Translations under genes and position numbers: made by a program
Notes under the pieces: generated by a model
Databases searched by the model: none
Told to the model about the DNA's origin: nothing
What the model saw: the letters and a program-made list of their open reading frames with translations, nothing else
Part shown: positions 25,210 to 62,769 of the stretch, in pieces
Layout of the letters: every line of letters starts with the position of its first letter
Numbering within the stretch: the first letter of the stretch is position 1
Assembly (NCBI GenBank): GCA_963402885.1
Contig: OY727094.1
Span: 3,598,501 to 3,662,500, forward strand
Length of the DNA stretch: 64,000 nt
Origin: Antedon bifida
Lineage: Eukaryota; Echinodermata; Crinoidea; Comatulida; Antedonidae
Direction of reading: 5' to 3'

Positions 25210-25580
25210 ATATATTTTTTTATTTATTTTATTTTATTCAATCGAAACCAACAGCAATAATTACCGCAACTTACAGGTTTGATACAAACAAAGCCAGGAC
25301 TGTTTAAAGCACCTTGATTGGTCCTAACATTGATCAAGGGCTCTCTCTCTCTCTCTCGTCCAGTGCCCACCTTGACCAGAGGTCTGAGGCAGATACTAGA
25401 TGCAGGGGCTGCCATAAGAGTCAGCAGTGCTGATTTCAAATGCCTAACGGGACCCCAGCTCCGTATACAGCACCCGCTATTCCCAGATGGTCTCCCATCC
25501 AAGCTCTAACCAGGCCCAACGTCGCTTAACTTCGGTGATCTCTGACGAGAACCGGTGTTTCAACGTGGTAAAGCCGTATC
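25210..25580 (-). mobile_element. 5S rRNA-derived SINE
   Basis: On the minus strand 25580-25463 aligns over its whole length with 5S rRNA: ACCGGTTCTCGTC, GATCACCGAAGTTAAGC, TTGGATGGGAGACC and CTGGGAATA are all present. These include the A-box and C-box of the internal Pol III promoter. Instead of terminating, the sequence continues through an unrelated body of about 230 bp, including a (GA)n tract, to an A-rich tail (AATAAAATAAAATAAATAAA). That is the architecture of a 5S-headed (SINE3-type) SINE. Substitutions such as TACGGAG at the 5S 3' end argue against a working 5S gene. Confidence 0.75.
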
Positions 25581-25764
25581 TATATAATAGCGCAAGCATG
25601 ATGTTTGTAACGAATAACGTTCCCTCTTTCTATGAATATTGGAGGAACTCATACATAGTTTTAAGAACAGAATTCATGACAGTTGTAATAGTCTCATTCA
25701 AACCATAGTTAACGTACTTCCACAATCCAACCTACATTAGCGATTGGTGCAAATTGGTATTTTA

Positions 25765-29159: not shown

Positions 29160-30284
29160 TCAATTGTTGTTGTAGTTTGACGTTGTTGATTTGTTACTGT
29201 TCATTTTCGTCAACATTGTCTGCGTCCTACGTGGCGATAGCTCATTGGTTCTTGTGTAAGTTCTACTAAGTTTTTTTCCTGGAAAACTGCAAAAACATTC
29301 CACAAACGCTTCCCTGTACTTAACATTAAATACATTATAAATAAATGGATTCGCTGCAGAGTTTATATAGAGTAGACACCGACAAAGATTTACCAAAATT
29401 CCGGCAGCATCTGGGTGTAAGTCTCCATGAATTGAGATCAGGTTAATTACCTGGAAAGGACTTAGACATAAAATGTATACTGAGACAGTGAGTATAAGCA
29501 TTCTCAATATCTTATGCTGAGCTCTATGTTTCACCATAAAAGAACGTGATAAGGTTCTCTGCGTCCGTGACATCTTCTGCATCATTGAAATCATCAAGAA
29601 ATACAGAATGAAAATGATTACAGCAACGACGAAAAACAACGAGGCGTCAATAGTGTGCAAGATGTCTTCACCGGGATGGCTAGTTGAATAATACGTACAA
29701 TATGTAATATCAACCAACTCTCCTTCATGCATCATATCTGGATAATGCTTAAAACCGGTAAAAGCCAGTTTACGCGAGTTCCAAACAAATGATACGCCCC
29801 AGCAAGAAAGCGTTGCACCAATCGCTATCGGTCTCACGTTGGTTGTCTTAAACCTCAATGGCCAACACACAACAAAATATCTCTCCAGTGTTAACGCCAG
29901 AATGGTCAAAGAGCTGACGTGAAAACTAACATCCACAAGAAACGTGTTCAGCTTACAGTAAAACAGACTTATTGCACTGTCTTCGTTAAGGTCGCCGGCT
30001 GCGAACACTTTCCAGAATGTAACTGGTGCGTTCGTCAGGTACATTAGATCTGCTAAAGCTAGATTCGCCAGATATATGTTCATAGACGTTCGCATTGGTT
30101 TTATTCGTAAGAATACAATGATAATAGCAATGTTACCAGTTATTCCAACAGTCACAACTATTGGCATGAATACTGTTATAATCAGTTTATCAACCTCAGT
30201 AAACGTCGGTGCTTCGGCGTATGACATGTTGGCCGTAATGTTCTCTATCTCTAACGCTGATTGCGTCGGTGCGTATTGCTCCAT
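29160..30284 (-). CDS. rhodopsin-family neuropeptide-type GPCR
   Basis: A 374-residue seven-helix receptor in one coding exon. Landmarks: N-glycosylation sites N15 and N19; TM1 with GN (50-51); TM2 NLALADL (D79); disulfide cysteines C110 and C196; TM3 end LTLERYFVVCWPLR (ERY at 134-136 in place of DRY); TM4 W162; TM6 CLSPF (273-277); TM7 NSAANPFIY (NPxxY at 312-316). The tail has a CFCSF cysteine cluster (330-334), a possible palmitoylation site. The ERYFxxCxPLR wording is closest to the ghrelin/neuromedin-U/TRH receptor cluster, so a peptide ligand and G-protein coupling at the plasma membrane are likely. The exact ligand is unknown. Odd points: the toggle Trp of CWxP is Leu, TM5 has no conserved Pro, and the last about 30 codons are the first unit of a 90-bp tandem array. 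The start has an acceptor-like TTCTCCTTTAG 21 bp upstream, suggesting a 5' UTR intron. Confidence 0.93.
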   Translation of the reverse strand: MEQYAPTQSALEIENITANMSYAEAPTFTEVDKLIITVFMPIVVTVGITGNIAIIIVFLRIKPMRTSMNIYLANLALADLMYLTNAPVTFWKVFAAGDLNEDSAISLFYCKLNTFLVDVSFHVSSLTILALTLERYFVVCWPLRFKTTNVRPIAIGATLSCWGVSFVWNSRKLAFTGFKHYPDMMHEGELVDITYCTYYSTSHPGEDILHTIDASLFFVVAVIIFILYFLMISMMQKMSRTQRTLSRSFMVKHRAQHKILRMLILTVSVYILCLSPFQVINLISIHGDLHPDAAGILVNLCRCLLYINSAANPFIYNVFNVKYREAFVECFCSFPGKKLSRTYTRTNELSPRRTQTMLTKMNSNKSTTSNYNNN

Positions 30285-30536
30285 AACGTCAATTTTACGG
30301 TTATTCTAAAGGAGAACAAATAGGAATGTTTTTAAAATAATATAAGAATATTTTTATTTTATCTTTTATATTATTATTCACATCCGATTAAATGACGCAG
30401 AAGCTAAAGTGCTTTTAATGGCCCATAAAAAGTCACGCTTTTGGTGGGAATGTGTTAGTATACAACAATGAGATAAACAGAATGAAAGAGAAGAAGGAAA
30501 AAAAACGAACTAGTTAAGTATATTCCCAATAATATC

Positions 30537-40704: not shown

Positions 40705-41212
40705 CGATGATGATGATATTGATGTTTACAATGACGGTGATGAAGGAGATGAGATGATGATAATTTCGATGATGATGATTATGATGATGATAATAAAGAT
40801 GATGATGACGATGAGGAGGATTATGATGATGGTGATGATGATGATGATGATTAAATAATGATGGTCATGATGATGATGATGATGATGACGATGATGATGA
40901 TGATGATGATGATGATGAAGATAATAATAATAATGATGGTTATGATGATGATGATGACGATGATGATGATAATGATGATGATGATGATGATGATGATAAT
41001 AATGATGGTTATGATGATAATGATGATAATAATAATAATAATTTTGATGATGTTGATGATGATAATGATGGTGGTAAAGATGATAACGATGAAGATGATG
41101 ATAATTTCGATGGTGATGAAGATGACGATGATGGTGATGATGAAAATGATGATAATAATAATAATTTTGATGATGTTGATGATGATGATGATAATGATGA
41201 TAATCATTACTG
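40705..41212. repeat. (TGA)n/(GATGAT)n microsatellite, about 500 bp
   Basis: Imperfect ATG/TGA trinucleotide array with interspersed ATA and GGT triplets; an internal AATAATTTTGATGATGTTGATG block occurs twice (about 41031 and 41151). Long open frames in several phases (poly-Met, poly-Ile, poly-His) are artefacts of triplet periodicity. Confidence 0.97.
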
Positions 41213-41589
41213 TATGTTGCTGCCAATATCAGGATGCTAAGAGTGTTAATGACGATCATACAGTTACAGACAGTTAGGTATAATTGATGATTAATGAAAT
41301 ACGATTAATGGCTTATGATGATAGTTCTAATCAAAACACAACATATTTTTATAAATTCATAGTGTATCTCGCATCTGACAGTCTAATCGTAACATTATTT
41401 CCCATCGGAGCTGTCAAACATGCTGTCTAACGCCAGTTATGTAACTTATCTCCATTGGGAAGATAACTTTAACGTGTATAAATTCGCAATGTTCTAACAA
41501 ATCCCGAATAGCTATGATATTCAAAAGGCCGTGAACCAATGCAATAGAGATTCGGAAATAGATGTTATTCAACGAAAGACATTTATCTA

Positions 41590-43541: not shown

Positions 43542-43803
43542 AAGCTTGGTTCCCACTAGCGACGCAAACAATGTAGCGCATGCAACCTACAGCATGGTTC
43601 CCACTAGAACGCAACGCAGCGACGTATCGACGCAAAGTGCTGTATTGCGTAATCACAAGTGGGAACCGACGACGCAATAGTGCTGCAAACATCGTATGTT
43701 TGATTTCACGCAGCCGCACAGGGGAAAACATAATGATTGGAAGGGCATTTCCTTACGTTGCGTAGATTGCGTTATGTTGCGTCGCTAGTGGAAACCAAGC
43801 TTT
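43542..43803. mobile_element. MITE-2 long form
   Basis: AAGCTTGGTTCCCACTAGCG at left, CGCTAGTGGAAACCAAGCTT at right. A second internal start GGTTCCCACTAGAACGC lies at 43594. The long form replaces the CCAAT arms with GTATCGACGCAAAGTGCTG, GTGGGAACCGACGACGC and GTTTGATTTCACGCAG. Same layout at 61427, 62198 and 62770. Confidence 0.8.
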
Positions 43804-44270
43804 AGTTATTAATATATCATTAATCTATATACCGTAGCATGCGTTTAGGTTTATGCATTGCGGTAGCTAACCGCCTCGACGCGTCATAAAAGAAATGGGG
43901 CATAATAATGAATTTTATGCGATTAATCCTCAATTGATCCATATAATATAATCATATTTCCGTTCATCGTATAAATTAAATTATTTTATATAGAATAAGC
44001 ATTGAGACTTATTCCTCCATGGAATAATAAACAATCTGTGTTATACATCATCATTACAATAATTGGATCAAGTCGACTTGGTTGTTGGTTATTATGGAAT
44101 AGCACCCTTTGTAATTCGTCAGGATCCAGGGTTCAAACACCTCGAAACTCACTTGTTTCCAAAGTGTAGGCCTACTTGTTGCAATTTATATTTTATATGC
44201 GTCGAATCGAATTTCGAATCTAATACAGCGCTTTGATCTTTCTCTGGAAATGTGCTTAATTAATAACTAA

Positions 44271-45501: not shown

Positions 45502-46033
45502 TAGCAGTAATTAGAAGTATAGGAGCAAGAAGCAACGATGCATGGTAGTAATAATAGTTAGTATAGTTTCCAAATCGTTTATAGATATTTTCAATGCCTC
45601 ACATTTAACAGGGGCGCATTCAGGAGATCCAGACCGAGAGATTGAGCCACACCACAAAATTGGATCCGCGTCCGCGCCTATTTAAGCGCGCCAAATAACT
45701 AATGTTTCAGATGGTTTGGTGTGACGTCGTGTTAATAAAATTGCTATACAATTCAAGAACCACCATTCCTTCCTAATCAACATTTATTATTGATTATAAA
45801 ATATACATGTTAGAAGCAATATCATCAGAGGTTAAAGAAAATTGGGGCAATGGTGATTGATGGAATAATAAAATAACTCATTTACAAAAATATAATGTAC
45901 TATCATTTTATTTATAGTAAAATTAATATAAAAGAACATTAAAACAGACATAAACATATAGGTTATGTATACGATAAATTATATAAAAATGGTGAATTGA
46001 ATGCCGTTAAAAACTGACAAAAATACGTAATTA

Positions 46034-49000
46034 TATGGCAAGCCTCAGCTGTCTGAAGTATTCAAAATATTATATTATTATATCATTTTTTATTATATTA
46101 TATATTGTATTGTAATGAATTATAGGTTTTGCGTTATATTACTTGGTTTTAGCATTATATTATATCTATTTCTAATATAATATGTGAAAAATGTAACAAA
46201 TTATTGACTTTTTGTATTATATTATTGGGTTTTAGCATTATATCATGAACATTTACTATTATATTATTAATAAAATACATTATATTATAATATAATTGTA
46301 TTATATTAAACGCATTTACCTTACTTTATAACATACAACATTATTATATTATACGGATTCGTGAGTTATATTATTATTTTGTATGATGTTTATTATACGT
46401 CACGACTTATTTCAGTTCTTCTAACTCTTTCTCTCCCTCCCCCTGTTCACTAGCAATCAGCGGCAGAATCTGAATTGTGTGACTGTTGAAGAATAACTAA
46501 TTATCTTTACTACGTACTAGGCCTAGGCATGGAGCTACTAGGGGATCTAGCCTAGACGTAGCTAGTTAGACAAGTGACCAAGGACCACCGGACAGCTACA
46601 ACTAATACTACAATACAATAATACTACTACAATAACTACTACTGCTACTACCTAGGCCTAGCTAGTAGAGTACTAGGTAGCCTACTACTAGGCTCTAGCT
46701 AGGGCGTATGTATGATATTAACTAGGCCTACTAGGCCTAGGCCTACTAGTACTAGGCTAGGCCTAGACTTAAGTTGTAGTAGGCTAGGGCCGGGCCTGCT
46801 GCCTTAGGCTAGGCTACTACTACTACTACTACTAGGCAGCCAGCCCATGATGGGTACGAGTAAGCCAAAATGTTGGATTTATAAGTAAACCAAAATTTGG
46901 GTACGAGCGAGTTGGCATGGCCCGGGTACAGGTTGACCTGTATCCTTCTAGCTAATCGTACTAGGCCTAGTCCTCAAGTAAGTCTACGCTACCCAGTCCG
47001 GCTACAATATGGTCTATTTTGTTTTACAGCTTTATTAATACTAATAGCTGGGTTCAAATCTGGGTTGGGACGGCTTTTTCTCATTCTAAAACAGATTTCC
47101 TTATCATAATAAAATAATATATGAATTTATTTGTAATATTGTAATGTATACATAATATAAGTAATTGCCATTGCATTTATTATTATTAATTATATATTAT
47201 ACGGTTACCCCTTAATTATACTATAGTATAATTTCCTTGTTATATTTTACAATATTTTCTTCATAATTCTACAATTTTGTCTTTCACAGCACAAATTTAT
47301 CATACTGAATCATCACACACCAAGTCTCATAAATCTCTACTGTATTTGTCCAAGCTACTCCAGCTACATGGTATTGCCTTGAGGCTAAACTACACACTGT
47401 ATACTGGCACTACCATCATTCCTGGCTCGTCAACCTGGACAACATAAGCACAGTTTCAGTTTATTTACCATTTCAATTTCTGAACATAAGAGATGAACAA
47501 CTTATATGGATGGATAACCGTAAGAGCGAAGCTCGTTTACCGGTCACCCGTTAGTGCAGTGACATTGCAGACAACATAAAGACAGGACAAAGGTGCAATA
47601 CATAACAAGACATGTGAACACTTGTGTTTGCAACCCCTTGGATAAAATAATATATTTATATAAAGGAGAAAGTTAGATATTATAATATTTCTTTTCGATC
47701 ATACAATGATAATTTTAAAATTACTTCCTAAGAAGTCATACTACTGATTCAAAATAGTGACTTACACCCTGTGGTCAAGGCTTTACTTTCTCTTATGCTT
47801 ATTTCCTCCAACATACAGAGTACATAGGACTTTTTTTATTCATAACTGTTGAATTGCATCCCAATACATAGTACCTATTGGTATTATATCTAAAAATACA
47901 AAGGCGGCTAACACAGATAGTTCCATATATACAGTACTCTTTTATAAATAGATGTATCTCTCCAAACTACTCCCAACTACCTAATCTAATAATAGTACTA
48001 TTAGCATACTACTATACACTTTGTAGACAAGAAATAAGTTGTATACACCTAGAGGACTTATGGTAGTACAGTCGATCGCCCTCTCACTGGCTCGGTCAAC
48101 ATAATCTATGCCTAGATTATTACAGTAATTAAAGTACATTATTACAGAGATTTTTTTTTTTTTTTTTGCAGAAATCAAAGTTATGTGTATAGAAAGCAGT
48201 ACTCGTATTAAAAACTAAGCATTTTGCAGGTCTTGAACGCAAACTGGCAGGATATTTTTTATTGTTGAAATGAATTGAATCCCAACTTATTTTCTACGAA
48301 CTGGAGACGAAGACATATTATGACCCTTTTATTTAAATTTATTTGAATAGACCTCCATGTAAAGTCATTAAAGGCTACATGATTGTTTTATATTTTAATA
48401 TGTGATAGTAGAAAATCATTGTGTATAATGAGGACTATGAATCTTATATTTACTTGCATTCTCATCTTTTTAAAATATTATTTATAATGCTGGTAATGAG
48501 TTTAAAATTTAATTATATTGACTATTTTTGATAATCATCATGTCCTTATAAATTCATTTATATTTCTTTTGTGTAATATATTTCATATATTATGTATTAA
48601 ATAAATTGGTAAGGCCCTATACTGTTATTATTTAAGAAAAGTTTATATACACTATTATTTAAATGCCTACCAATATTAGTATTAATTGTTTATGTAAATA
48701 TTTTGTCTAGTTGTCTTGATTTTTTGTATAGGCCAATGGCATCAATGTTTTTCTCAACGCAAATTAGCCTAATAATGCCACATTTAGACACATGATTCAT
48801 TGATTTCTGATATTCTGTACTTGTGTTTGCATTACTAAAATAGTAGTTAATATATTTTATTTATAATGTATGTATAAACATATATTCATATTTTTTTTAA
48901 CATTTTTAATACCTATCTACCTTTCTGATATTGTTACTATTATATAATATTTGTTGAGGCAGCAATAAAAAGAAAATTAAAACATTTAATTTGACCTATA

Positions 49001-52000
49001 CTGTACTATGTTAGTTCAGGAGATAAAGTGTGTGTGGGCAGAAACTAGTGTGTTGGAAGTTGGTGGTGTGAGGTGTATAGTTGTCACTTTAAGACCTAAA
49101 TTAGATGTTTTCTGAAGAAAAGAAGTAAGCGGATACGCTTTCAAACAACTCCAAGAAGATTCACACAAAAATAATTACTTTCCAATAAAATAGTATAACA
49201 GTGTATATTACAGTAGGCCTACATTGAATAAACTCGAGCGAAAAAATAACGCACATAAAAAAACATTCATTTTCTTGTCGAAAAGTGCCCTCTCTAGTTT
49301 TCTATTAATTTATTAATAATTATTATTAATTAATGAGTAATATGAATATATTTTTAACATTCAATGCTGGAAGCTGGTTCTACTCCTAACAAAGTTTCAT
49401 ACCTCAAAATTTCATCAACGTATTCAAAGCACTTCAATATTAAATATCACATTTAACATAAAAAATCGGGTTTTGGATAGAATTTTGCTTAAAAACATAT
49501 ACAAAAAGCATCGATAAAAAATACTTTTCGTATTCAAAAACATTTGATACTTGGTATAAATGTTCAATATAGGTTGCTCTATTCACAGAAACAAAATTGC
49601 ATCCATGAACGTTTTTTGTTGGTTGTTTTTTCAAAATCGTTATTAGGTTGAAAAAAATGAGTTGGAATTGTATGGTCTTTCATAAGTGTACATTTTGTAA
49701 AAACGTAAATTAAAAAAATCAGTGATATGGCTTGATAGTTATTTTGTTTTGCAATATGGATGGAGCAACCTATATTGAACATTTAAACCAAGTATCAAAT
49801 GTTTTTGAATACGAAAAGTATTTTTTATCGATGTTTTCTGTATATGTTTTTAAGCAAAATCAAAACCTGAATTTGTAATGTTAAATGTGATATTTATTTA
49901 AGTGCTTTGAATACGTTGATGAAATTTGGAGGTATGAAACTTTGTTAGGAGTAGATACAGCTTCCAGCCTTAATTGTAAAAAATATGTTAATATTACTCA
50001 TTAATTAATAATAATTATTAATAAATTAATAGAAAACTAGAGAGGGCACTTTTCGAAAAGAAAATGAATATTTTTTTATGTGCGTTATTATTCCGCTCGA
50101 GTTTATTCAATGTACTGTAATATACACTGTTATACTATTTTATTGGAAAGTAATTATTTTTGTGTGAATCTTCTTGAAGTTGTTTGAAAGCGTATCCTTT
50201 TACTTCTTTTCTTCAGAAACATCTAATTTAGGTCTTAAAGTGACAAATATACACCTCGCACCAGATTCTGCCCACACACACTTCATCTCCTGAACTAACA
50301 TAGTACAGTATAAGTCAAAATAATTGTTTAAAATTTTTTTTTATTGAAAACAATCTGCCTCAAAAAATATTATACAATAGTAACAATATCAGAAAGGTAG
50401 GTATTGTAATAATGTTTAAATTTAAAAATGTGAAAAAAAAACTGAATGTTTATACATACATTACAAATGAAATATATTAACTACTAGGTTATTTTAGTAT
50501 TGCATACACAAGTACAGAATATCAGAAATCAATGAATCATGTTTCTAAATGTGGCATTATTAGGCTAATTTGCTTTGAGAAAAACATTGATGCCATTGGC
50601 CTATACAAAAAATCAAGGCAATTAGACAAAATATTTATATAAACAATTATTTAAACTAATATTGGTAGGCATAAAATAAGTGTATATAAACTTTTCTTAA
50701 ATAATAACAGTATAGGGCCTTACCAATTTATTTAATACATAATATATGAACTATATTCCACAAAAGACATATAAATGAATTTATATGGACATAATGATTA
50801 TCAAAACTAGTCAATATAGTTAAATTTTAAACTCGTTACCACCAGCATTATAAATAAAATTTTAAAAAGATGAGAATGCAAGTAAATATCAGATTCTTAG
50901 TCCTCATTATACACAATAATTTTCTACTATTAGTATCACATATTAAAATATAAAACAATCATGTAGCCTTTAATGAATTTACATGGAGGTCTATTCAAAT
51001 AAATTTAAATAAAAGGGTCATAATATGTCTTCGTCTCCAGTTCGTAGAAAATGAAGTTAGGATTCTATTCATTTCAACATAAAAAAATATTCAAAATATC
51101 CTGCCAGTTTGCGTTCAAGAGTACAACCTGCTTAGTTGTTAATACGAGTACTGCTTTCTATACACATAACTTTGATTTCTGCCAAAAAAAAAAAAAAAAT
51201 CTCTGTAATAATGTACTTTAATTACTGTAATAATCTAGGTATAGATTATGTTGACCGGGCCAGTGAGAGGGCGTTCGACTGTACTACCATAAGTCCTCTA
51301 GGTGTATACAACTTCTTGTCTACAAAGTGTATAGTAGTATGCTAATAGTACTATTATTAGATTAGGTAGTTGGGAGTAGATTGGAGAGATACATCTATTT
51401 ATAAGAGAGTACTGTATATGGAACTATCTGTGTTAGCCGCCTTTGTATTTTTAGATATAATACCAATAGGTACTATGTATTGGGATGCAATTCAACAGTT
51501 ATGAATAAAAAAGTCCTATGTACTCTGTATGTTGGAGGAAATAAGCATAAGAGAAAATAAAGCCTTGACCACAGGGTGTAAGTCACTATTTTGAATCAGT
51601 AGTATGACTTCTTAGGAAATAATTTTAAAATTATCATTGTATGATCGAAAAGAAATATTATAATATCTAACTTTCTCCTTTATATAAATATATTATTTTA
51701 TCCAAAGGGTTGCAAACACAAGTGTTCACATGTCTTGTTATGTATTGCACCTTTGTCCTGTCTTTATGTTGTCTGTAATGTCACTGCACTAACGGGTGAC
51801 CGGTAAACGAGCTTCGCTCTTACGGTTATCCATCCATATAAGTTGTTCATCTCTTATGTTCAGAAATTGAAATGGTAAATAAACTGAAACTGAAACTGTG
51901 CTTATGTGGTCCAGGTTGACGAGCCAGGAATGATGGTAGTGCCAGTATACCGTGTAGTTTAGCCTCAAGGCAATACCATGTAGCTGGAGTAGCTTGGACA

Positions 52001-53281
52001 AATACAGTAGAAATTTATGAGACTTGGTGTGTGATGATTCAGTATGATAAATTTGTGCTGTGAAAGACAAAATTGTAGAATTATGAAGAAAATATTGTAA
52101 AATATAACAAGGAAATTATACTATAGTATAATTAAGGGGTAACTGTATAATATATAATTAATAATAATAAATGCAATGGCAATTACTTATATTATGTATA
52201 CATTACAATATTACAAATAAATTCATATATTATTTTATTATGATAAGGAAATCTGTTTTAGAATGAGAAAAGCCATCCCAACCCAGATTTGAACCCAGCT
52301 ATCAATAAGGCTATAAAACAAAATAAACCATATTGTAGCCGGACTGGGTAGCGTAGACTTACTTGAGGCCTAGGCCTAGTACTATTAGCTAGAAGGATAC
52401 AGGTCAACCCGTACCCATGCCAACTCGCTCGTACCCAAATTTTAGTTTACTTATCCAAAATTTTGGCTTACTCGTACCCATCATGGGCTAACTGCCTAGT
52501 AGTAGTAGTAGCCTAGCCTAAGGCAGCAGGCCCGGCCCTAGCCTACTACAACTTAAGTCTAGGCCTAGCCTAGTACTAGTAGGCCTAGGCCTAGTAGTTA
52601 ACATCATACATACGCCCTAGAGCCTAGTAGTAGCTACCTAGTACTCTACTAGCTAGGCATAGGTAGTAGCAGTAGTAGTTATTGTAGTAGTATTATTGTA
52701 TTGTAGTATTAGTTGTAGCTGTCCGGTGGTCCTTGGTCACTTGTCTAACTAGCTACGTCTAGGCTAGATCCCCTAGTAGCTCCATGCCTAGGCCTAGTAC
52801 GTAGTAAAGATAATTAGTTATTCTTCAACAGTCACACAATTCAGATTCTGCCGCTGATTGCTAGTGAACAGGGGGAGGGAGAGAAAGAGTTAGAAGAACT
52901 GAAATAAGTCGTGACGTATAATAAACATCATACAAAATAATAATATAACTCACGAATCCGTATAATATAATAATGTTGTATGTTATAAAGTAAGGTAAAT
53001 GCGTTTAATATAATACAATTATATTATAATATAATGTATTTTATTAATAATATAATAGTAAATATTCATAATGTAATGCCAAAACCGAATAATATAATAC
53101 AAATAGTCAATAATTTGTTACATTTTTCACATAATATATTAGAAATAGATATAATATAATGCTAAAACTAAGTAATAAAATGCAAAACGTATATTTCATT
53201 ACAATACAATATATAATATAATAAAAAAATGATATAATAATATAATATTTTGAATACTTCAGACAGCTGAGGCTTGCCATA
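46034..53281. mobile_element. giant mobile palindrome, copy 1 (7.25 kb, 6-bp TSD)
   Basis: Begins TATGGCAAGCCTCAGCTGTC and ends with its reverse complement. Perfect hexamers TAATTA flank it (46028-46033, 53282-53287). The whole left arm (about 46034-49580) is repeated inverted as the right arm (about 49760-53281), leaving a spacer of about 180 bp. Going inward each arm has: AT-rich TTATATTATTA-type subterminal repeats (to about 46420), a CTAGGCCTAG/TACTACTAC-rich block (46510-46845), a GGGTACGAG segment, then low-complexity AT DNA. No conserved protein was found; short ORFs are shifted between arms. It would form a huge hairpin if single-stranded. The element is presumably non-autonomous or foldback-type. 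Confidence 0.93.
49581..49759. other. central spacer of palindrome copy 1
   Basis: Pairing of the arms ends at CAATATAGGTTGCTC (left, about 49565-49580) and GAGCAACCTATATTG (right, about 49762-49777). The interval between is non-repeated T-rich DNA with no gene. Confidence 0.7.
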
Positions 53282-53287
53282 TAATTA

Positions 53288-53573
53288 TGTTATTTCTTTT
53301 TAATATTCTCCTAAATAACTGTGCCTTTAGGGTATAATTTAACTTATCTCTATATTAATTTCCTTTCCTTCACATGTTTTTGAACTCACTTCATTTCAAT
53401 TGTATTTCGATGCATAACCTTGTCATTGTGTTTAAATTATTCGTACATTAGATTCTATAATTTGTATCCACGCGTAGTTTAAACACAAATCATTGTTATA
53501 GCGTTTCATTAAGTAACACCTGCGTCTAGACATAAAAAAGAATGGAAAATGAAGTAAAATCAAATAAATAGTA
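53288..53573. other. short native stretch between the two giant palindromes
   Basis: About 286 bp of AT-rich host sequence between two independent insertions. It contains no gene or repeat I recognise, and shares no sequence with the flanks outside either element. Confidence 0.7.
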
Positions 53574-53579
53574 GCTATG

Positions 53580-56500
53580 TATGGCAAGCCTCAGCTGTCT
53601 GAAGTATTCAAAATATTATATTATTATATCATTTTTTATTATATTATATATTGTATTGTAATGAATTATAGGTTTTGCGTTATATTACTTGGTTTTAGCA
53701 TTATATTATATCAATTTCTAATATATTATGTGAAAAATGTAACAAATTATTGACTTTTTGTATTATATTATTAGGTTTTAGCATTATATCATGAACATTT
53801 ACTATTATATTATTAATAAAATACATTATATTATAATATAATTGTATTATATTAAACGCATTTACCTTATTTTATAACATACAACATTATTATATTATAC
53901 GGATTCGTTAGTTATATTATTATTTTGTATGATGTTATTTATACGTCACGGCTTATTTCACTTCTTCCAACTCTTTCTCTCCCTCCCCCTGTTCACTAGC
54001 AATCAGCGGCAGAATCTGAATTGTGTGACTGTTGAAGAATAACTAATTATCTTTACTACGTACTAGGCCTAGGCCTACTAGGGGATCTAGCCTAGACGTA
54101 GCTAGTTAGACAAGTGACCAAGGACCACCGGACAGCTATAACTAATACTACAATACAATAATACTACTACAATAACTACTACTGCTACTACCTAGGCCTA
54201 GCTAGTAGAGTACTAGGTAGCCTACTACTAGGCTCTAGGGCGTATGTATGATATTAACTAGGCCTAGGCCTACTAGTACTAGGCTAGGCCTAGACTTAAG
54301 TTGTAGTAGGCTAGGGCCGGGCCTGCTGCCTTAGGCTAGGCTACTACTACTACTACTACTAGGCAGCCAGCCCATGATGGGTACGAGTAAGCCAAAATGT
54401 TGGATTTATAAGTAAACCAAAATTTGTGTACGAGCGAGTTGGCATGGCCCGGGTACAGGTTGACCTGTATCCTTCTAGCTAATCGTACTAGGCCTAGTCC
54501 TCAAGTAAGTCTACGCTACCCAGTCCGGCTACAATATGGTCTATTTTGTTTTACAGCTTTATTAATACTAATAGCTGGGTTCAAATCTGGGTTGGGACGG
54601 CTTTTTCTCATTCTAAAACAGATTTCCTTATCATAATAAAATAATATATGAATTTATTTGTAATATTGTAATGTATACATAATATAAGTAATTGCCATTG
54701 CATTTATTATTATTAATTATATATTATACGGTTACCCCTTAATTATACTATAGTATAATTTCCTTGTTATATTTTACAATATTTTCTTCATAATTCTACA
54801 ATTTTGTCTTTCACAGCACAAATTTATCATACTGAATCATCACACACCAAGTCTCATAAATCTCTACTGTATTTGTCCAAGCTACTCCAGCTACATGGTA
54901 TTGCCTCGAGGCTAAACTACACACTGTATACTGGCACTACCATCATTCCTGGCTCGTCAACCTGGACAACATAAGCACAGTTTCAGTTTATTTACCATTT
55001 CAATTTCTGAACATAAGAGATGAACAACTTATATGGATGGATAACCATAAGAGCGAAGCTCGTTCACCGGTCACCCGTTAGTGCAGTGACATTACAGACA
55101 ACATAAAGACAGGACAAAGGTGCAATACATAACAAGACATGTGAACACTTGTGTTTGCAACCCCTTGGATAAAATAATATATTTATATAAAGGAGAAAGT
55201 TAGATATTATAATATTTCTTTTCGATCATACAATGATAATTTTAAAATTACTTCCTAAGAAGTCATACTACTGATTCAAAATAGTGACTTACACCCTCTG
55301 GTCAAGGCTTTACTTTCTCTTATGCTTATTTCCTCCAACATACAGAGTACATAGGACTTTTTTTATTCATAACTGTTGAATTGCATCCCAATACATAGTA
55401 CCTATTGGTATTATATCTAAAAATACAAAGGCGGCTAACACAGATAGTTCCATATATACAGTACTCTTTTATAAATAGATGTATCTCTCCAAACTACTCC
55501 CAACTACCTAATCTAATAATAGTACTATTAGCATACTACTATACACTTTGTAGACAAGAAATAAGTTCTATACACCTAGAGGACTTACAGTATGGTAGTA
55601 CAGTCGATCGCCCTCTCACTGGCTCGGTCAACATAATCTATGCCTAGAATATTACAGTAATTAAAGTACATTATTACAGAGATTTTTTTTTTTTTTTTTG
55701 CAGAAATCAAAGTTATGTGTATAGAAAGCAGTACTCGTATTAAAAACTAAGCATTTTGCAGGTCTTGAACGCAAACTGGCAGGATATTTTTTATTGTTGA
55801 AATGAATTGAATCCTAACTTATTTTCTACGAACTGGAGATGAAGACATATTATGACCCTTTTATTTAAATTTATTTGAATAGACCTCCATGTAAAGTCAT
55901 TAAAGGCTACATGATTGTTTTATATTTTAATATGTGATAGTAGAAAATCATTGTGTATAATGAGGACTATGAATCTTATATTTACTTGCATTCTCATCTT
56001 TTTAAAATATTATTTATAATGCTGGTAATGAGTTTAAAATTTAATTATATTGACGATTTTTGATAATCATCATGTCCTTATAAATTCATTTATATTTCTT
56101 TTGTGTAATATATTTCATATATTATGTATTAAATAAATTGGTAAGGCCCTATACTGTTATTATTTAAGAAAAGTTTATATACACTATTATTTAAATGCCT
56201 ACCAATATTAGTATTAATTGATTATGTAAATATTTTGTCTAGTTGTCTTGATTTTTTGTATAGGCCAATGGCATCAATGTTTTTCTCAACGCAAATTAGC
56301 CTAATAATGCCACATTTAGACACATGATTCATTGATTTCTGATATTCTGTACTTGTGTTTGCATTACTAAAATAGTAGTTAATATATTTTATTTATAATG
56401 TGTGTATAAACATATATTCATATTTTTTTTAACATTTTTAATACCTATCTACCTTTCTGATATTGTTACTATTATATAATATTTTTTGAGGCAGCAATAA

Positions 56501-59500
56501 AAAAAAAATTAAAACATTTAATTTGACCTATACTGTACTATGTTAGTTCAGGAGATAAAGTGTGTGTGGGCAGAAACTAGTGTGTTGGAAGTTGGTGGTG
56601 TGAGGTGTATAGTTGTCACTTTAAGACCTAAATTAGATGTTTTCTGAAGAAAAGAAGTAAGCGGATACGCTTTCAAACAACTCCAAGAAGATTCACACAA
56701 AAATAATTACTTTCCAATAAAATAGTATAACAGTGTATATTACAGTACATTGAATAAACTCGAGCGGAATAATAATGCACATAAAAAAACATTCATTTTC
56801 TTGTCGAAAAGTGCCCTCTCTAGTTTTCTATTAATTTATTAATAATAATTATTAATTAATGAGTAATATGAACATATTTTTAACATTCAATGCTGGAAGC
56901 TGGTTCTACTCCTAACAAAGTTTCATACCTCCAAATTTCATCAACGTATTCAAAGCACTTCAATATTAAATATCACATTTAACATAAAAAATCGGGTTTT
57001 GGATAGAATTTTGCTTAAAAACATATACAAAAAACATCGATAAAAAATACTTTTCGTATTCAAAAACATTTGATACTTGGTATAAATGTTCACTATATGT
57101 TGCTCTATTCACAGAAACAAAATTGCATTCATAAACGTTTTTTGTTAGTTGTTTTTTCAAAATCGTTATTAGGTTGAAAAAAATGAGTTGGAATTGTATG
57201 ATTTTTCATAAGTGTACATTTTGTAAAAACGTAAATTAAAAAAATCAGTGATATGGCTTGATAGTTATTTTTTTTTTGCAATATGGATGGAGCAACCTAT
57301 ATTAAACATTTATACCAAGTATCAAATGTTTTTGAATACGAAAAGCATTTTTTATCGATGTTTTTTGTATATGTTTTTAAGCAAAATTCTATCAAACCCT
57401 GAATTTGTAATGTTAAATGTGATATTTATTTAAGTGCTTTGAATACGTTGATGAAATTTGGAGATATGAAACTTTGTTAGGAGTAGATACAGCTTCCAGC
57501 CTTAAATGTAAAAAATATGTTCATATTACTCATTAATTAATAATAATTATTAATAAATTAATAGAAAACTAGAGAGGGCACTTTTCGAAAAGAAAATGAA
57601 TATTTTTTTATTTGCGTTATTATTCCGCTCGAGTTTATTCAATGTACTGTAATATACACTGTTATACTATTTTATTGGAAAGTAATTATTTTTGTGTGAA
57701 TCTTCTTGAAGTTGTTTGAAAGCGTATCCTTTTACTTCTTTTCTTCAGAAACATCTAATTTAGGTCTTAAAGTGACAAATATACACCTCACACCAGATTT
57801 TGCCCACAGACACTTCATCTCCTGAACTAACATAGTACAGTATAAGTCAAAATAATTGTTTAAAATTTTTTTTTATTGGAAACAATCTGCCTCAAAAAAT
57901 ATTATACAATAGTAACAATATCAGAAAGGTAGGTATTGTAATAATGTTTAAATTTAAAAATGTAAAAAAAAAAAACAGTATAGGGCCATACCAATTTATT
58001 TAATACATAATATATGAACTATATTCCACAAAAGAAATATAAATGAATTTATATGGACATAATGATTATCAAAACTAGTCAATATAATTAAATTTTAAAC
58101 TCATTACCAGCATTATAAATAAAATTTTAAAAAGATGAGAATGCAAGTGAATATATGATTCATAGTCCTCATTATACACAATGATTTTCTACTATCACAT
58201 ATTAAAATTTAAAACAATCATGTAGCCTTTAATGACTTTACATGGAGGTCTATTCAAATAAATTTAAATAAAAGGGTCATAATATGTCTTCGTCTCCAGT
58301 TCGTAGAAAATGAAGTTAGGATTCCATTCATTTCAACAATAAAAAATATTCAAAATATCCTGCCAGCTTGCGTTCAAGAGTACAACCTGCTTAGTTTTTA
58401 ATACGAGTACTGCTTTCTATACACATAACTTTGATTTCTGCAAAAAAAAAAAAAAAATCTCTGTAATAATGTACTTTAATTACTGTAATAATCTAGGTAT
58501 AGATTATGTTGACCGGGCCAGTGAGAGGGCGTTCGACTGTACTACCATAAGTCCTCTAGGTGTATACAACTTACTTCTTGTCTACAAAGTGTATAGTAGT
58601 ATGCTAATAGTACTATTATTAGATTAGGTAGTTGGGAGTAGATTGGAGAGATACATCTATTTGTAAGAGAGTACTGTATATGGAACTATCTGTGTTAGCC
58701 GCCTTTGTATTTTTAGATATAATACCAATAGGTACTATGTATTGGGATGCAATTCAACAGTTATGAATAAAAATGTATGTTGGAGGAAATAAGCATAAGA
58801 GAAAATAAAGCCTTGACCACAGGGTGTAAGTCACTATTTTGAATCAGTAGTATGACTTCTTAGGAAATAATTTTAAAATTATCATTGTATGATCGAAAAG
58901 AAATATTATAATATCTAACTTTCTCCTTTATATAAATATATTATTTTATCCAAGGGGTTGCAAACACAAGTGTTCACATGTCTTGTTATGTATTGCACCT
59001 TTGTTCTGTCTTTATGTTGTCTGTAATGTCACTGCACTAATGGGTGACCGGTAAACGAGCTTTGCTCTTACGGTTATCCATCCATATAAGTTGTTCATCT
59101 CTTATGTTCAGAAATTGAAATGGTAAATAAACTGAAACTGTGCTTATGTGGTCCAGGTTGACGAGCCAGGGATGATGGTAGTGGCAGTATACCGTGTAGT
59201 TTAGCCTCAAGGCAATACCATGTAGCTGGAGTAGCTTGGACAAATACTGTAGAGATTTATGAGACTTGGTGTGTGATGATTCAGTACTGATAAATTTGTG
59301 CTGTGAAAGACAAAATTGTAGAATTATGAAGAAAATATTGTAAAATATAACAAGGAAATTATACTATAGTATAATTAAGGGGTAACCGTATAATATATAA
59401 TTAATAATAATAAATGCAATGGCAATTACTTATATTATGTATACATTACAATATTACAAATAAATTCATATATTATTTTATTATGATAAGGAAATCTGTT

Positions 59501-60514
59501 TTAGAATAAGAAAAAGCCATCCCAACCCAGATTTGAACCCAGCTATCAATAAAGCTATAAAACAAAATAAACCATATTGTAGCCGGACTGGGTAGCGTAG
59601 ACTTACTTGAGGCCTAGGCCTAGTACGATTAGCTAGAAGGATACAGGTCAACCCGTACCCATGCCAACTCGCTCGTACCCAAATTTTGGTTTACTTATCC
59701 AAAATTTTGGCTTACTCGTACCCATCATGGGCTGACTGCCTAGTAGTAGTAGTAGTAGCCTAGCCTAAGGCAGCAGGCCCGGCCCTAGCCTACTACAACT
59801 TAAGTCTAGGCCTAGCCTAGTACTAGTAGGCCTAGGCCTAGTAGTTAACATCATACATACGCCCTAGAGCCTAGTAGTAGCTACCTAGTACTCGCCTAGG
59901 TAGTAGCAGTAGTAGTTATTGTAGTAGTATTATAGTATTGTAGTATTAGTTGTAGCTGTCCGGTGGTCCTTGGTCACTTGTCTAACTATAGCTACGTCTA
60001 GGCTAGATCCCCTAGTAGGCCTAGGCCTAGTACGTAGTAAAGATAATTAGTTATTCTTCAACAGTCACACAATTCAGATTCTGCCGCTGATTGCTAGTGA
60101 ACAGGGGGAGGGAGAGAAAGAGTTAGAAGAACTGAAATAAGTCGTGACGTATAATAAACATCATACAAAATAATAATATAACTAACGAATCCGTATAATA
60201 TAATAATGTTGTATGTTATAACGTAAGGTAAATGCGTTTAATATAATACAATTATATTATAATATAATGTATTTCATTATTAATATAATAGTAAATGTTC
60301 ATAATATAATGCCAAAACCGAATAATATAATACAAATAGTCAATAATTTGTTACATTTTTCACATAATATATTAGAAATAGATATAATATAATGCTAAAA
60401 CTAAGTAATATAATGCAAAACGTATATTTCATTACAATACAATATATAATATAATAAAAAAATGATATAATAATATAATATTTTGAATACTTCAGACAGC
60501 TGAGGCTTGCCATA
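53580..60514. mobile_element. giant mobile palindrome, copy 2 (6.94 kb, 6-bp TSD)
   Basis: Same family and organisation as copy 1, with its own target duplication GCTATG (53574-53579, 60515-60520). Arms meet around a spacer of about 170 bp near 57108-57280. The right arm lacks about 262 bp found in copy 1 (copy 1 positions about 50443-50705), with the breakpoint in an A-run at 57964-57974. Left arms of the two copies are nearly identical base for base, as are right arms, while left and right arms of one element differ more. This shows both came from a master that was already palindromic. Confidence 0.93.
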
Positions 60515-60757
60515 GCTATGCTTAATGTTTGTTTCAATTTTTCACGCTGCTGCTCTAGCCAGCTACGTCCCATGAGGACTACTCATTCAGAAGCTAAAGC
60601 AAGCAGCAGTTATAGTATCTAAGGCTGAGGGCTGGGGAAAGGTACATATGTCTTCTTTCAAATGCTGTGTATACAATTAACTAGTGAAAAAATGGGCATG
60701 TGATTCATAATTAAAGAACTATCTGTGATGTGTATGTACCTTTGCGATTAAAGGACA

Positions 60758-61082: not shown

Positions 61083-61426
61083 TTTTTATTGTATTTTCTT
61101 TGAGGTATTTCTCAATTTTCCGAATTACTAATGTTTTGTATAGCGATCATAATTGAAGAGAGTTATCGATCAGGTTAGGAAACTAACTCTAGAGAGATAA
61201 TAATGTAACCATTATAGGCCTACTCAGACTCAAATTATTGATAAAGCATTATTATCAAGACAATTGATCGACCTTCTCCCTTCTTGATTGCCGATTAAAT
61301 GAGAAAAATTCCTAGGTAATCGATTCTCTCATTAACCACCAAAACGTCTAATTACAGCTGAATGTCATCTTGTCCACACTGGAGGAATTTAGTAGATGTG
61401 TACATGTTTTTTTTTTAATCTTCCCT

Positions 61427-61688
61427 AAAGCTTGGTTCCCACTAGAGACGCAAAACGTAACGCAACCTACGCAACGTAAGAAAATGACCTTCCAATATTT
61501 TGATTGCTCCCGCCTGCGTGAAATCAAACCTGCGATGTTCGTCGGTTCCCACTTGTGATGAGGCAATACATCATTTTGCGTCGATACGTCGCTGCGTTGC
61601 GTTCCAGTGGAAACCACGCTATATCGTGTATCTTAATCAATACGTCGTTGTGTTGCGTTGCGTTGCGTCGCTAGTGGGAACCACGCTT
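61427..61688. mobile_element. MITE-2 long form
   Basis: AAGCTTGGTTCCCACTAGAG to GCTAGTGGGAACCACGCTTA; contains an internal terminus CAGTGGAAACCACGCT at about 61604-61620, so it is probably two overlapping or nested copies. A MITE-3 starts directly after it. Confidence 0.75.
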
Positions 61689-62197: not shown

Positions 62198-62403
62198 TAA
62201 GCGTGGTTCCCACTAGGACGCAACGCAACGACGTATTGACGCAACGTGCTGTATTGCGTAATCATAGTGGGAACCGACGACGCAATAGTGCTGCAAACAT
62301 CACAGGTTTGATTTCACGCAGGCGGGGGCAAACACAATTATTAGGACATTTTCTTACGTTGCGTAGGTTGCGTATTTTGCGTCGCTAGTGGGAACCAAGC
62401 TTC
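62198..62403. mobile_element. MITE-2 long form, complete
   Basis: AAGCGTGGTTCCCACTAGGAC to GTCGCTAGTGGGAACCAAGCTT, with GTATTGACGCAACGTGCTG and GTGGGAACCGACGACGC inside. Confidence 0.82.
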
Positions 62404-62769
62404 ATTATGTAATTTTACGCGCGCGTGGAAACGCTGATGATAATATGATGGTATTTTGTTTATATATGTGTTATGTATTATATATGATATATACAAAAAT
62501 GCCAATAAAAGTAGGCCTTATATTACAAGTTAATTACATCTTTTTCATATCAAATTTGCAGGTGAATTTTACGTTTATTGATTACAAAATTCATTGTCTT
62601 AATTGCCTTTTTATTGTTTCGCTTACGTCATGGTTAACTCACTCGCTTATTGGTGATTAAATCAAGCATTGATCTGAATTAATTTCCTTACGCAATTGAA
62701 GTCTAAATATAAAGACCATTATTCGTGTTATTTTAAAGGTGCGTTTTTTAATAACTTAAACAAATTGTC

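Follow-up and report, generated by a model that had tools for sequence, protein, structure and literature searches.

The question raised by this locus is whether two long palindromes that lie side by side in the genome of the crinoid Antedon bifida are mobile units and, if so, to which type of transposon they belong. The window, by which we mean the whole 64,000-nucleotide stretch that was analyzed (contig OY727094.1 of assembly GCA_963402885.1, forward-strand positions 3,598,501 to 3,662,500), contains both palindromes, which are called element 1 and element 2 below. Judged by their ends, arms and flanking duplications, the two are very probably non-autonomous foldback transposons of the IS3EU/GingerRoot type. 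They belong to a family that is real, recently active, non-autonomous, foldback in structure and of IS3EU type. The parts of the two elements, in positions of the window and with the basis of each boundary in brackets, are as follows.

46028..46033, + strand: left target-site duplication (TSD) of element 1, TAATTA (junction letters)
46034..53281, no strand: element 1, complete palindromic transposon of subfamily A, 7,248 bp
46034..49579, + strand: left arm of element 1 (local alignment)
46034..46060, + strand: outermost 27 bp of the terminal repeat of element 1, with CTGAAG at positions 20-25 (arm alignment)
46069..46373, + strand: subterminal zone of element 1 with repeated TTATATTA / ATTATATTAT (word counts against shuffles)
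49580..49762, + strand: non-palindromic center of element 1, 183 bp (local alignment)
49763..53281, - strand: right arm of element 1, inverted (local alignment)
53282..53287, + strand: right TSD of element 1, TAATTA (junction letters)
53288..53573, no strand: host DNA between the two elements, both duplications excluded
53574..53579, + strand: left TSD of element 2, GCTATG (junction letters)
53580..60514, no strand: element 2, complete palindromic transposon of subfamily A, 6,935 bp
53580..57105, + strand: left arm of element 2 (local alignment)
57106..57289, + strand: center of element 2 (local alignment)
57290..60514, - strand: right arm of element 2, inverted, with ~260 bp deleted near the center relative to element 1
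60515..60520, + strand: right TSD of element 2, GCTATG (junction letters)

The two elements and their family

The first-pass annotation, which was made from the letters of the window alone, had described two mobile palindromes with inverted arms of ~3.5 kb, and local alignment bears this out. The arms are ~3.5 kb each in both elements, they enclose a shared non-palindromic center of 183-184 bp, and the two arms of one element are 96.4% (element 1) or 96.3% (element 2) identical. When each whole element, center included, is compared with its own reverse complement, the identities are 95.4% and 95.2%, respectively. The left ends of both elements are TATGGCAAGCC (at 46034 and 53580), and the right ends are GGCTTGCCATA (to 53281 and 60514). 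The common terminus and the private perfect hexamers, TAATTA and GCTATG, that the annotation had reported are exact at all four junctions. Its figure of 7 kb for both suits element 1; element 2 falls slightly short, at 6.9 kb, owing to a loss of ~260 bp from the right arm near the center. The end that it gave, 60520, is that of the right duplication, and element 2 itself stops at 60514. The two elements are 298 bp apart.

Two parts of the structure are highly conserved: the terminal 27 bp are identical across all 38 arms that were aligned, and a center-like match is present in all 19 aligned full-length copies. Within these 27 bp is the CTGAAG at which, as described below, other copies have been found inserted. 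TTATATTA occurs 10 times between 46034 and 46420 (shuffle mean 0.3), and ATTATATTAT occurs seven times in the subterminal zone of element 1 (shuffle mean 0.05). This AT-rich zone may be a transposase-binding array. As for tandem repeats within the arms, the one feature seen that comes near is this zone of short TTATATTA repeats; no tandem array inside the elements appeared among the 20 of 23 direct-repeat families listed, which did not come from a dedicated tandem-repeat search.

The open reading frames of the two elements are no longer than expected by chance. The longest stop-to-stop frame is 108 amino acids in each, and single-base shuffles of element 1, which served as the control for frame length, gave a median of 92 and a 95% point of 128. 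None of the nine element frames scanned reached the Pfam cut-off; the matches below it were LytTR (E 0.01 and 0.04) and SecM (E 0.09). A coding remnant in the arms was considered and rejected on the shuffle-like frame lengths and these nine scans. DNA inserted in eight long copies of the family has frames of at least 100 amino acids in five cases, one of them reverse-transcriptase-like by eye, and no integrase-like frame was noticed by eye in these inserts, for which no Pfam scan was run. The statement in the first-pass annotation that no transposase is visible holds, therefore, for both elements and for the frames examined in other copies; as described below, a coding family with similar ends is present elsewhere in the genome.

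The genome searched was the window's own assembly (315.6 Mb, 27 contigs, referred to here as C1, C7 and so on). At most 100 places were listed for each pattern, and terminus pairs were read on C1, C7, C8 and part of C9, together with one pair on C10; unpaired termini, apart from the junction pieces of two, and a 1-kb pair (C8 15080396-15081410) were left out of this reading. A 25-bp word from the terminus has 111 + 111 matches on the two strands (222) with up to two mismatches, and the 100 listed are all exact. A 27-bp inner-arm word has 99 + 98 matches (197) with up to two mismatches, and a 32-bp word from the center has 54 + 53 (107) with up to three. Reversed-pattern controls gave 0 and 0 for each of the three words. 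The ratio of terminus to inner arm to center, ~2:2:1, is the one predicted for ~100 palindromes, and the family is therefore of about this size. A search of viral and prokaryote contig collections did not find the terminus, as expected of an animal element.

Among the 100 inner-arm matches listed, nearly all are in facing pairs ~975 bp apart; seven of those listed, leaving aside the last, whose partner may lie beyond the listing, are unpaired by eye, and five of the seven are in fetched copies with deletions or rearrangements. A survey of 37 spans, in which a single start was paired with each of two possible right ends, gave palindrome scores of 0.89-1.00 for lengths of 6.4-7.3 kb. Seven spans measure just 1.0-4.8 kb; they have internal deletions or are old copies that have diverged. 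Spans longer than 7.8 kb are either compound or interrupted by other DNA, and the majority of them score 0.00-0.26, by a measure that tolerates little offset.

Insertion sites and clustering

The first-pass annotation had proposed a search of the whole genome for copies with the same ends and different hexamers, and this search found them. Both junctions were read at 46 terminus pairs, of which 34 have perfect duplications (30 of six bp and four of seven bp), with 32 different sequences among the 34. Two positions drawn at random from the window would agree over 6 bp with a probability of 0.0006. The joined flanks of 24 copies are AT-rich and display a weak symmetric preference, with an A three bases before the duplication in 16 of the 24 and a T three bases after it in 18.

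The distribution of the copies is far from even. For example, among 43 listed spans, 12 of the 39 gaps between neighbors are 708 bp or less, one is 2.9 kb and the others are longer than 100 kb, whereas only 0.02 gaps of 1 kb or less would be expected at random; this model used the 43 pairs of the terminus listing and covers just the listed part of C9. The marker for the center tells the same story, since 27 of 89 neighbor distances are 12.1 kb or less (0.49 expected at 13 kb or less, in a simulation with assumed lengths for contigs C14 and C16) and the next are 31, 80 and 95 kb. In all, 42 of the 100 listed centers are in 15 clusters of two to five. Most of the spacers that were read start and finish with the two neighbors' own duplications.

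Some copies are inside others. At C9 7682855-7696947, an element is inserted in the right terminal repeat of another, with CTTCAG on both sides, and the outer element keeps its own CATTGTA duplication. The CTGAAG/CTTCAG site in the terminal repeat has been used at four junctions in all; the other three are partial cases (C1 22987401/22987426, C8 19964192/19964217 and C8 19971221) that do not have the full nested structure. C7 34896552/34896642 looks like a second, subterminal insertion site, judged from its junction. Insertion near and into resident copies is therefore shown; that the transposition complex steers it there is inferred.

It may be asked whether the clustering is simply passive and reflects insertion into, or survival in, AT-rich, gene-poor DNA with no steering. 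The spacers have a GC content of 0.19-0.30 in 10 of 12 cases, the insertion sites are AT-rich as well, and contig C10 is enriched, with 23 of the 100 centers listed, all of which would agree with this explanation. However, the gaps between neighbors are bimodal, where a regional preference should fill the middle range, and the same CTGAAG/CTTCAG site in the terminal repeat recurs at the four junctions. On this evidence, we regard passive clustering as an unlikely account, one that deserves perhaps a quarter of our belief.

Superfamily and coding relatives

IS3EU elements have TAYGG..CCRTA ends, terminal inverted repeats (TIRs) longer than 30 bp and 6-bp TSDs (PMC12730594); their termini are always TA..TA and the TSD is usually 6 bp (PMC10045372). 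The palindromes resemble IS3EU/GingerRoot elements in each of these features: both end in TATGG..CCATA, their arms of ~3.5 kb serve as TIRs well over 30 bp, and the duplication is 6 bp in 30 of the 34 perfect cases and 7 bp in four. They differ in that there is no transposase inside and in that the arms make up almost the whole element.

Relatives with coding capacity were sought through the domain PF24764, which has 46 matches in the genome. One member of the most uniform group of these begins TATGGAAAGCCAAACCCGCC, an end that occurs 20 times per strand with no more than one mismatch. The ends of this coding family are TATGGAAAGCC, and all nine end pairs checked agree at 39-40 of the 40 terminal bases; seven of the nine have a perfect 6-bp TSD, and those seven spans hold PF24764 matches. 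An exon of 195 amino acids matches PF24764 with an E value of 6e-69 and rve weakly. By these matches, the genome contains a putatively IS3EU-like coding family whose outermost ends (TATGGmAAGCC) are nearly those of the palindromes; it need not be their helper.

One copy of the coding family has an unusual form. At C7 36215070-36244725, a 29.7-kb copy has the duplication AATTAC at both outer ends and contains two inverted transposase regions that are identical over 3,510 bp. It is known from samples rather than from a full read: in two further sampled pairs, the inverted arms match at 100% over 500 bp and at 98% over 409 bp, and nearer the center there is a 37-bp match in one sampled pair, none in another and none in the central kilobase. 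This copy may be a giant foldback or a composite element, in which two elements bracket other DNA. Its form suggests that inverted structures with a single duplication arise in the coding family too, which is a possible clue to the origin of the palindromes.

Could the palindromes have been mobilized by a different superfamily that produces 6-bp duplications, for instance Polinton, hAT6 or Dada? Polinton/Maverick elements have AG..CT termini, are 15-20 kb long and carry genes for a polymerase and an integrase. These ends do not fit the palindromes, which have TATGG..CCATA, are 7 kb long and have no coding frame that could be found. Duplications are 8-11 bp in Mutator, 7-8 bp in P and usually 8 bp in hAT elements, lengths that differ from the 6 bp found in 30 of 34 cases. 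Because hAT families with 5-7 bp exist (PMC12730594), hAT is set aside by its ends and not by duplication length alone. This explanation does have in its favor that 6-bp duplications are reported for Polinton (PMC10045372) and for hAT families (PMC12730594), and that the search for a coding partner with the same ends came up empty. Against it, the combination of TATGG..CCATA and 6 bp has been reported as the signature of IS3EU, and the sole coding family tied to such ends, in a genome that was not searched for other superfamilies, has an integrase-like DDE core. Mobilization by another superfamily is, in our opinion, quite improbable.

The palindromes have very long inverted arms that account for most of the element, which places them among foldback elements, a structural class that spans several superfamilies. 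Foldback elements were reportedly described from sea urchins by Lieberman et al. in 1983; these have the echinoderm host and the foldback structure in common with the palindromes, a likeness by description only. The suggestion in the first-pass annotation of an undescribed, possibly foldback, element type tied to a DNA transposon superfamily is right as to the foldback-like form and can be narrowed to IS3EU by ends and duplication length; "undescribed" goes too far for the form itself, since multi-kb foldbacks that have no transposase are known from Galileo. Galileo copy 112 of Drosophila willistoni (P superfamily) is 9,021 bp long, with arms of 4,246 and 4,680 bp and no transposase (PMC4168063), and is the nearest precedent in size. 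Like the palindromes, it is almost all arm and has identical terminal duplications. However, Galileo has 7-8-bp duplications, belongs to another superfamily and contains internal tandem repeats and pieces of other transposable elements; in addition, this is one extreme copy among 191, whereas the palindromes are a uniform family of ~100.

The Tetris/Mutator-type foldbacks (PMC4079207) also have long inverted arms, are non-autonomous and have a transposase source that was not found. They differ from the palindromes in their 8-10-bp duplications, arms of up to 1.7 kb, ~220-bp tandem repeats and variable middle domain. According to the same article, most foldbacks seem to be Mutator elements, with exceptions, and the form may arise when the transposase is lost and the TIRs lengthen. 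No IS3EU foldback was found described in the literature searched, which did not extend to subscription papers or Repbase; PMC8268682, the one article listed there with both "IS3EU" and "foldback", has the latter word just in the title of a reference. To judge from that literature, the novel points are the superfamily, the uniformity across ~100 copies, and the fact that copies cluster and insert into one another.

Inheritance of the palindrome and its meaning

The first-pass annotation held that the palindrome behaves as a transposable unit, and the relationships among the arms establish this. The 38 arms of 19 full-length copies were placed in a tree, from which the labels of subfamily A (element 1-like) and subfamily B (~7.0 kb) were assigned; left and right arms separate inside both subfamilies with support of 0.99-1.00. 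In 36 of 36 pairs of elements in A and 36 of 36 in B, the left arms are closer to each other, and the right arms to each other, than the two arms of either element are, a count that excludes the nineteenth copy, C8_17153468. For elements 1 and 2 themselves, 68 arm sites unite the two left arms and the two right arms, one groups by element and none is crossed. Like arms are closer than the arms of one element, and the palindrome therefore moves as a unit; the general like-arm pattern could not arise if palindromes formed de novo at each site or if the arms were regularly converted. Gene conversion between arms since the split of elements 1 and 2 was considered and has left hardly any trace (the one site versus 68).

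Some transposition must be recent, since certain copies are nearly identical. C1_22988135 and C7_9143861 have five differences in 6,981 aligned arm sites, and element 1 and C1_11233239 have 11 in 7,061. The older history is more complicated. When the majority states of A and B are compared, nine sites group left with left, two by subfamily and one is crossed, and all nine left/right sites common to A and B are in the inner quarter of the arm (chance if uniform, 5e-6). From these sites, the palindrome seems to be older than the A/B split and the outer arm seems to have been nearly homogeneous at that time; their restriction to the inner quarter makes an older homogenization of the arms possible. 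Within elements 1 and 2, the outer and inner arm did not differ significantly when compared (p 0.09). There are also 40 and 43 fixed sites specific to the left arm in the two subfamilies versus 12 and 17 specific to the right arm; some of all these sites are runs beside gaps. This excess could reflect directional conversion or faster change of the left arm.

The same comparisons bear on the idea that a single insertion was duplicated, in tandem or segmentally, to give the side-by-side pair and the clusters. The 298-bp distance in the window and the clusters of two to five elsewhere would fit such duplications, and in the cluster at C7 24.35-24.36 Mb, two spacers are 91% identical over ~135 bp, so some duplication may have occurred there. 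However, the TSDs differ between the two window elements, and they do so too in the clusters read, in every case in which both members carry a TSD. Among the 19 copies, element 1 is closest to C1_11233239 and C7_24352987 (0.16-0.17% different) and element 2 is 1.3% away, and a five-copy cluster on C7 mixes at least one B copy (34872335) with one A copy (34906196). Duplication of a single insertion consequently has very little chance of explaining the pair or the clusters in general.

Palindromes are hard to assemble, and hairpin or foldback reads might have been built into palindromes by sequencing or assembly. Such foldback-read artifacts are on record (PMC12870357), but the arms differ by ~4% plus indels, perfect duplications bound 34 of the 46 pairs, and the same variants of the left and of the right arm are found, in phase, at several unlinked places on different chromosomes, which argues so strongly against an assembly artifact that we give this explanation next to no credence.

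Several observations weigh against the reading of the elements as IS3EU-type foldbacks that move as units. Twelve of the 46 pairs lack a perfect duplication. Of these, five are short or old, two differ at a single base of the six, two are compound, two are near full-size copies with none at all, and one is L058 (C8:19167697-19172275), a 4.6-kb span with family ends and a non-palindromic interior. L058 also has a second family end nested ~87 bp inside. In the copy set apart above, C8_17153468 (C8:17153468-17159899, 6.4 kb), the left arm is 98.0% identical to the right arm of element 1 versus 97.0% to the left, so arm exchange or conversion does occur; this copy looks as if it was part-exchanged between its arms, which is a possible history. 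As for the superfamily, PF24764 is a presumed marker of IS3EU, judged by the ends and duplications seen here; what the exon confirms is an integrase-like core. The palindromes and the coding family have 10 of the 11 outermost bases in common and no interior sequence over the stretch compared, which covers the near part of the coding element. No coding copy with the palindrome's own TIR was found: a search with the 15-bp end and any next base except C had one match, and none of the 100 listed termini is within 20 kb of a PF24764 match in a by-eye comparison. With no IS3EU DDE transposase encoded in the two elements and no coding copy with the same TIR among the termini listed, the palindromes are therefore filed as IS3EU-type by ends and duplication only and are not proven members.

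The remainder of the window contains several features that are separate from the palindromes. A G-protein-coupled receptor gene at 29160-30305 (- strand) encodes a product 96% identical to an Antedon mediterranea protein and 79% identical to one of Anneissia japonica, which by itself points to a crinoid host, probably of the genus Antedon. A full-length 5S rRNA match is present at 25462-25581 (- strand; Rfam RF00001, 74 bits), either a gene or a 5S-derived repeat, and no other Rfam family matches in the window at the gathering cut-offs. There is a long GAT-rich triplet tract at 40738-41255. A ~220-bp repeat like a miniature inverted-repeat transposable element (MITE), with inverted ends, occurs at 43588-43813, 61425-61623 and 62200-62413, the last two within 2 kb of element 2. 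Another MITE-like family has ten copies of ~110-190 bp with inverted ends AGCTCTGTCTACACTATCAAAC..GTTTGATAGTGTAGACAGAGCT, and these start at approximately the following positions.

2053, 5908, 7674, 9182, 13630, 23819, 33315, 37434, 38423, 42872: ten-copy MITE-like family

How might foldbacks of IS3EU type move? An IS3EU-type, integrase-like transposase, supplied in trans, would recognize the conserved terminal 27 bp, possibly with some help from the AT-rich repeats next to them, and would join both ends across a 6-bp stagger, by which the whole unit would be moved. The palindrome itself would have come from an ancestral inverted duplication of one end, through aberrant transposition or gap repair, and the ~4% arm divergence together with the 183-bp center would make it tolerable to the replication machinery. 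Insertion would be steered to the neighborhood or the ends of resident copies. We also offer, tentatively and at somewhat less than even odds, a more specific possibility: that this is an obligately palindromic IS3EU lineage, in which the perfect-ended inverted dimer, rather than any element with a single arm, would replicate with its arm identities kept over many rounds of transposition and a complex drawn to resident copies would insert at one fixed site of the terminal repeat to produce growing arrays.

Multi-kb palindromes are thought to be unstable, and here ~100 copies have been made, with distinct arms and with some copies almost identical. The family provides ~100 natural replicates for studying the survival and movement of long palindromes in the genome of an animal, and it adds elements of IS3EU type to those known in foldback form. 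If either element were transcribed from end to end, the RNA would fold into a 3.5-kb hairpin, a possible source of silencing RNA. Finally, the insertions beside and inside resident copies make self-targeting by a eukaryotic DNA transposon testable.

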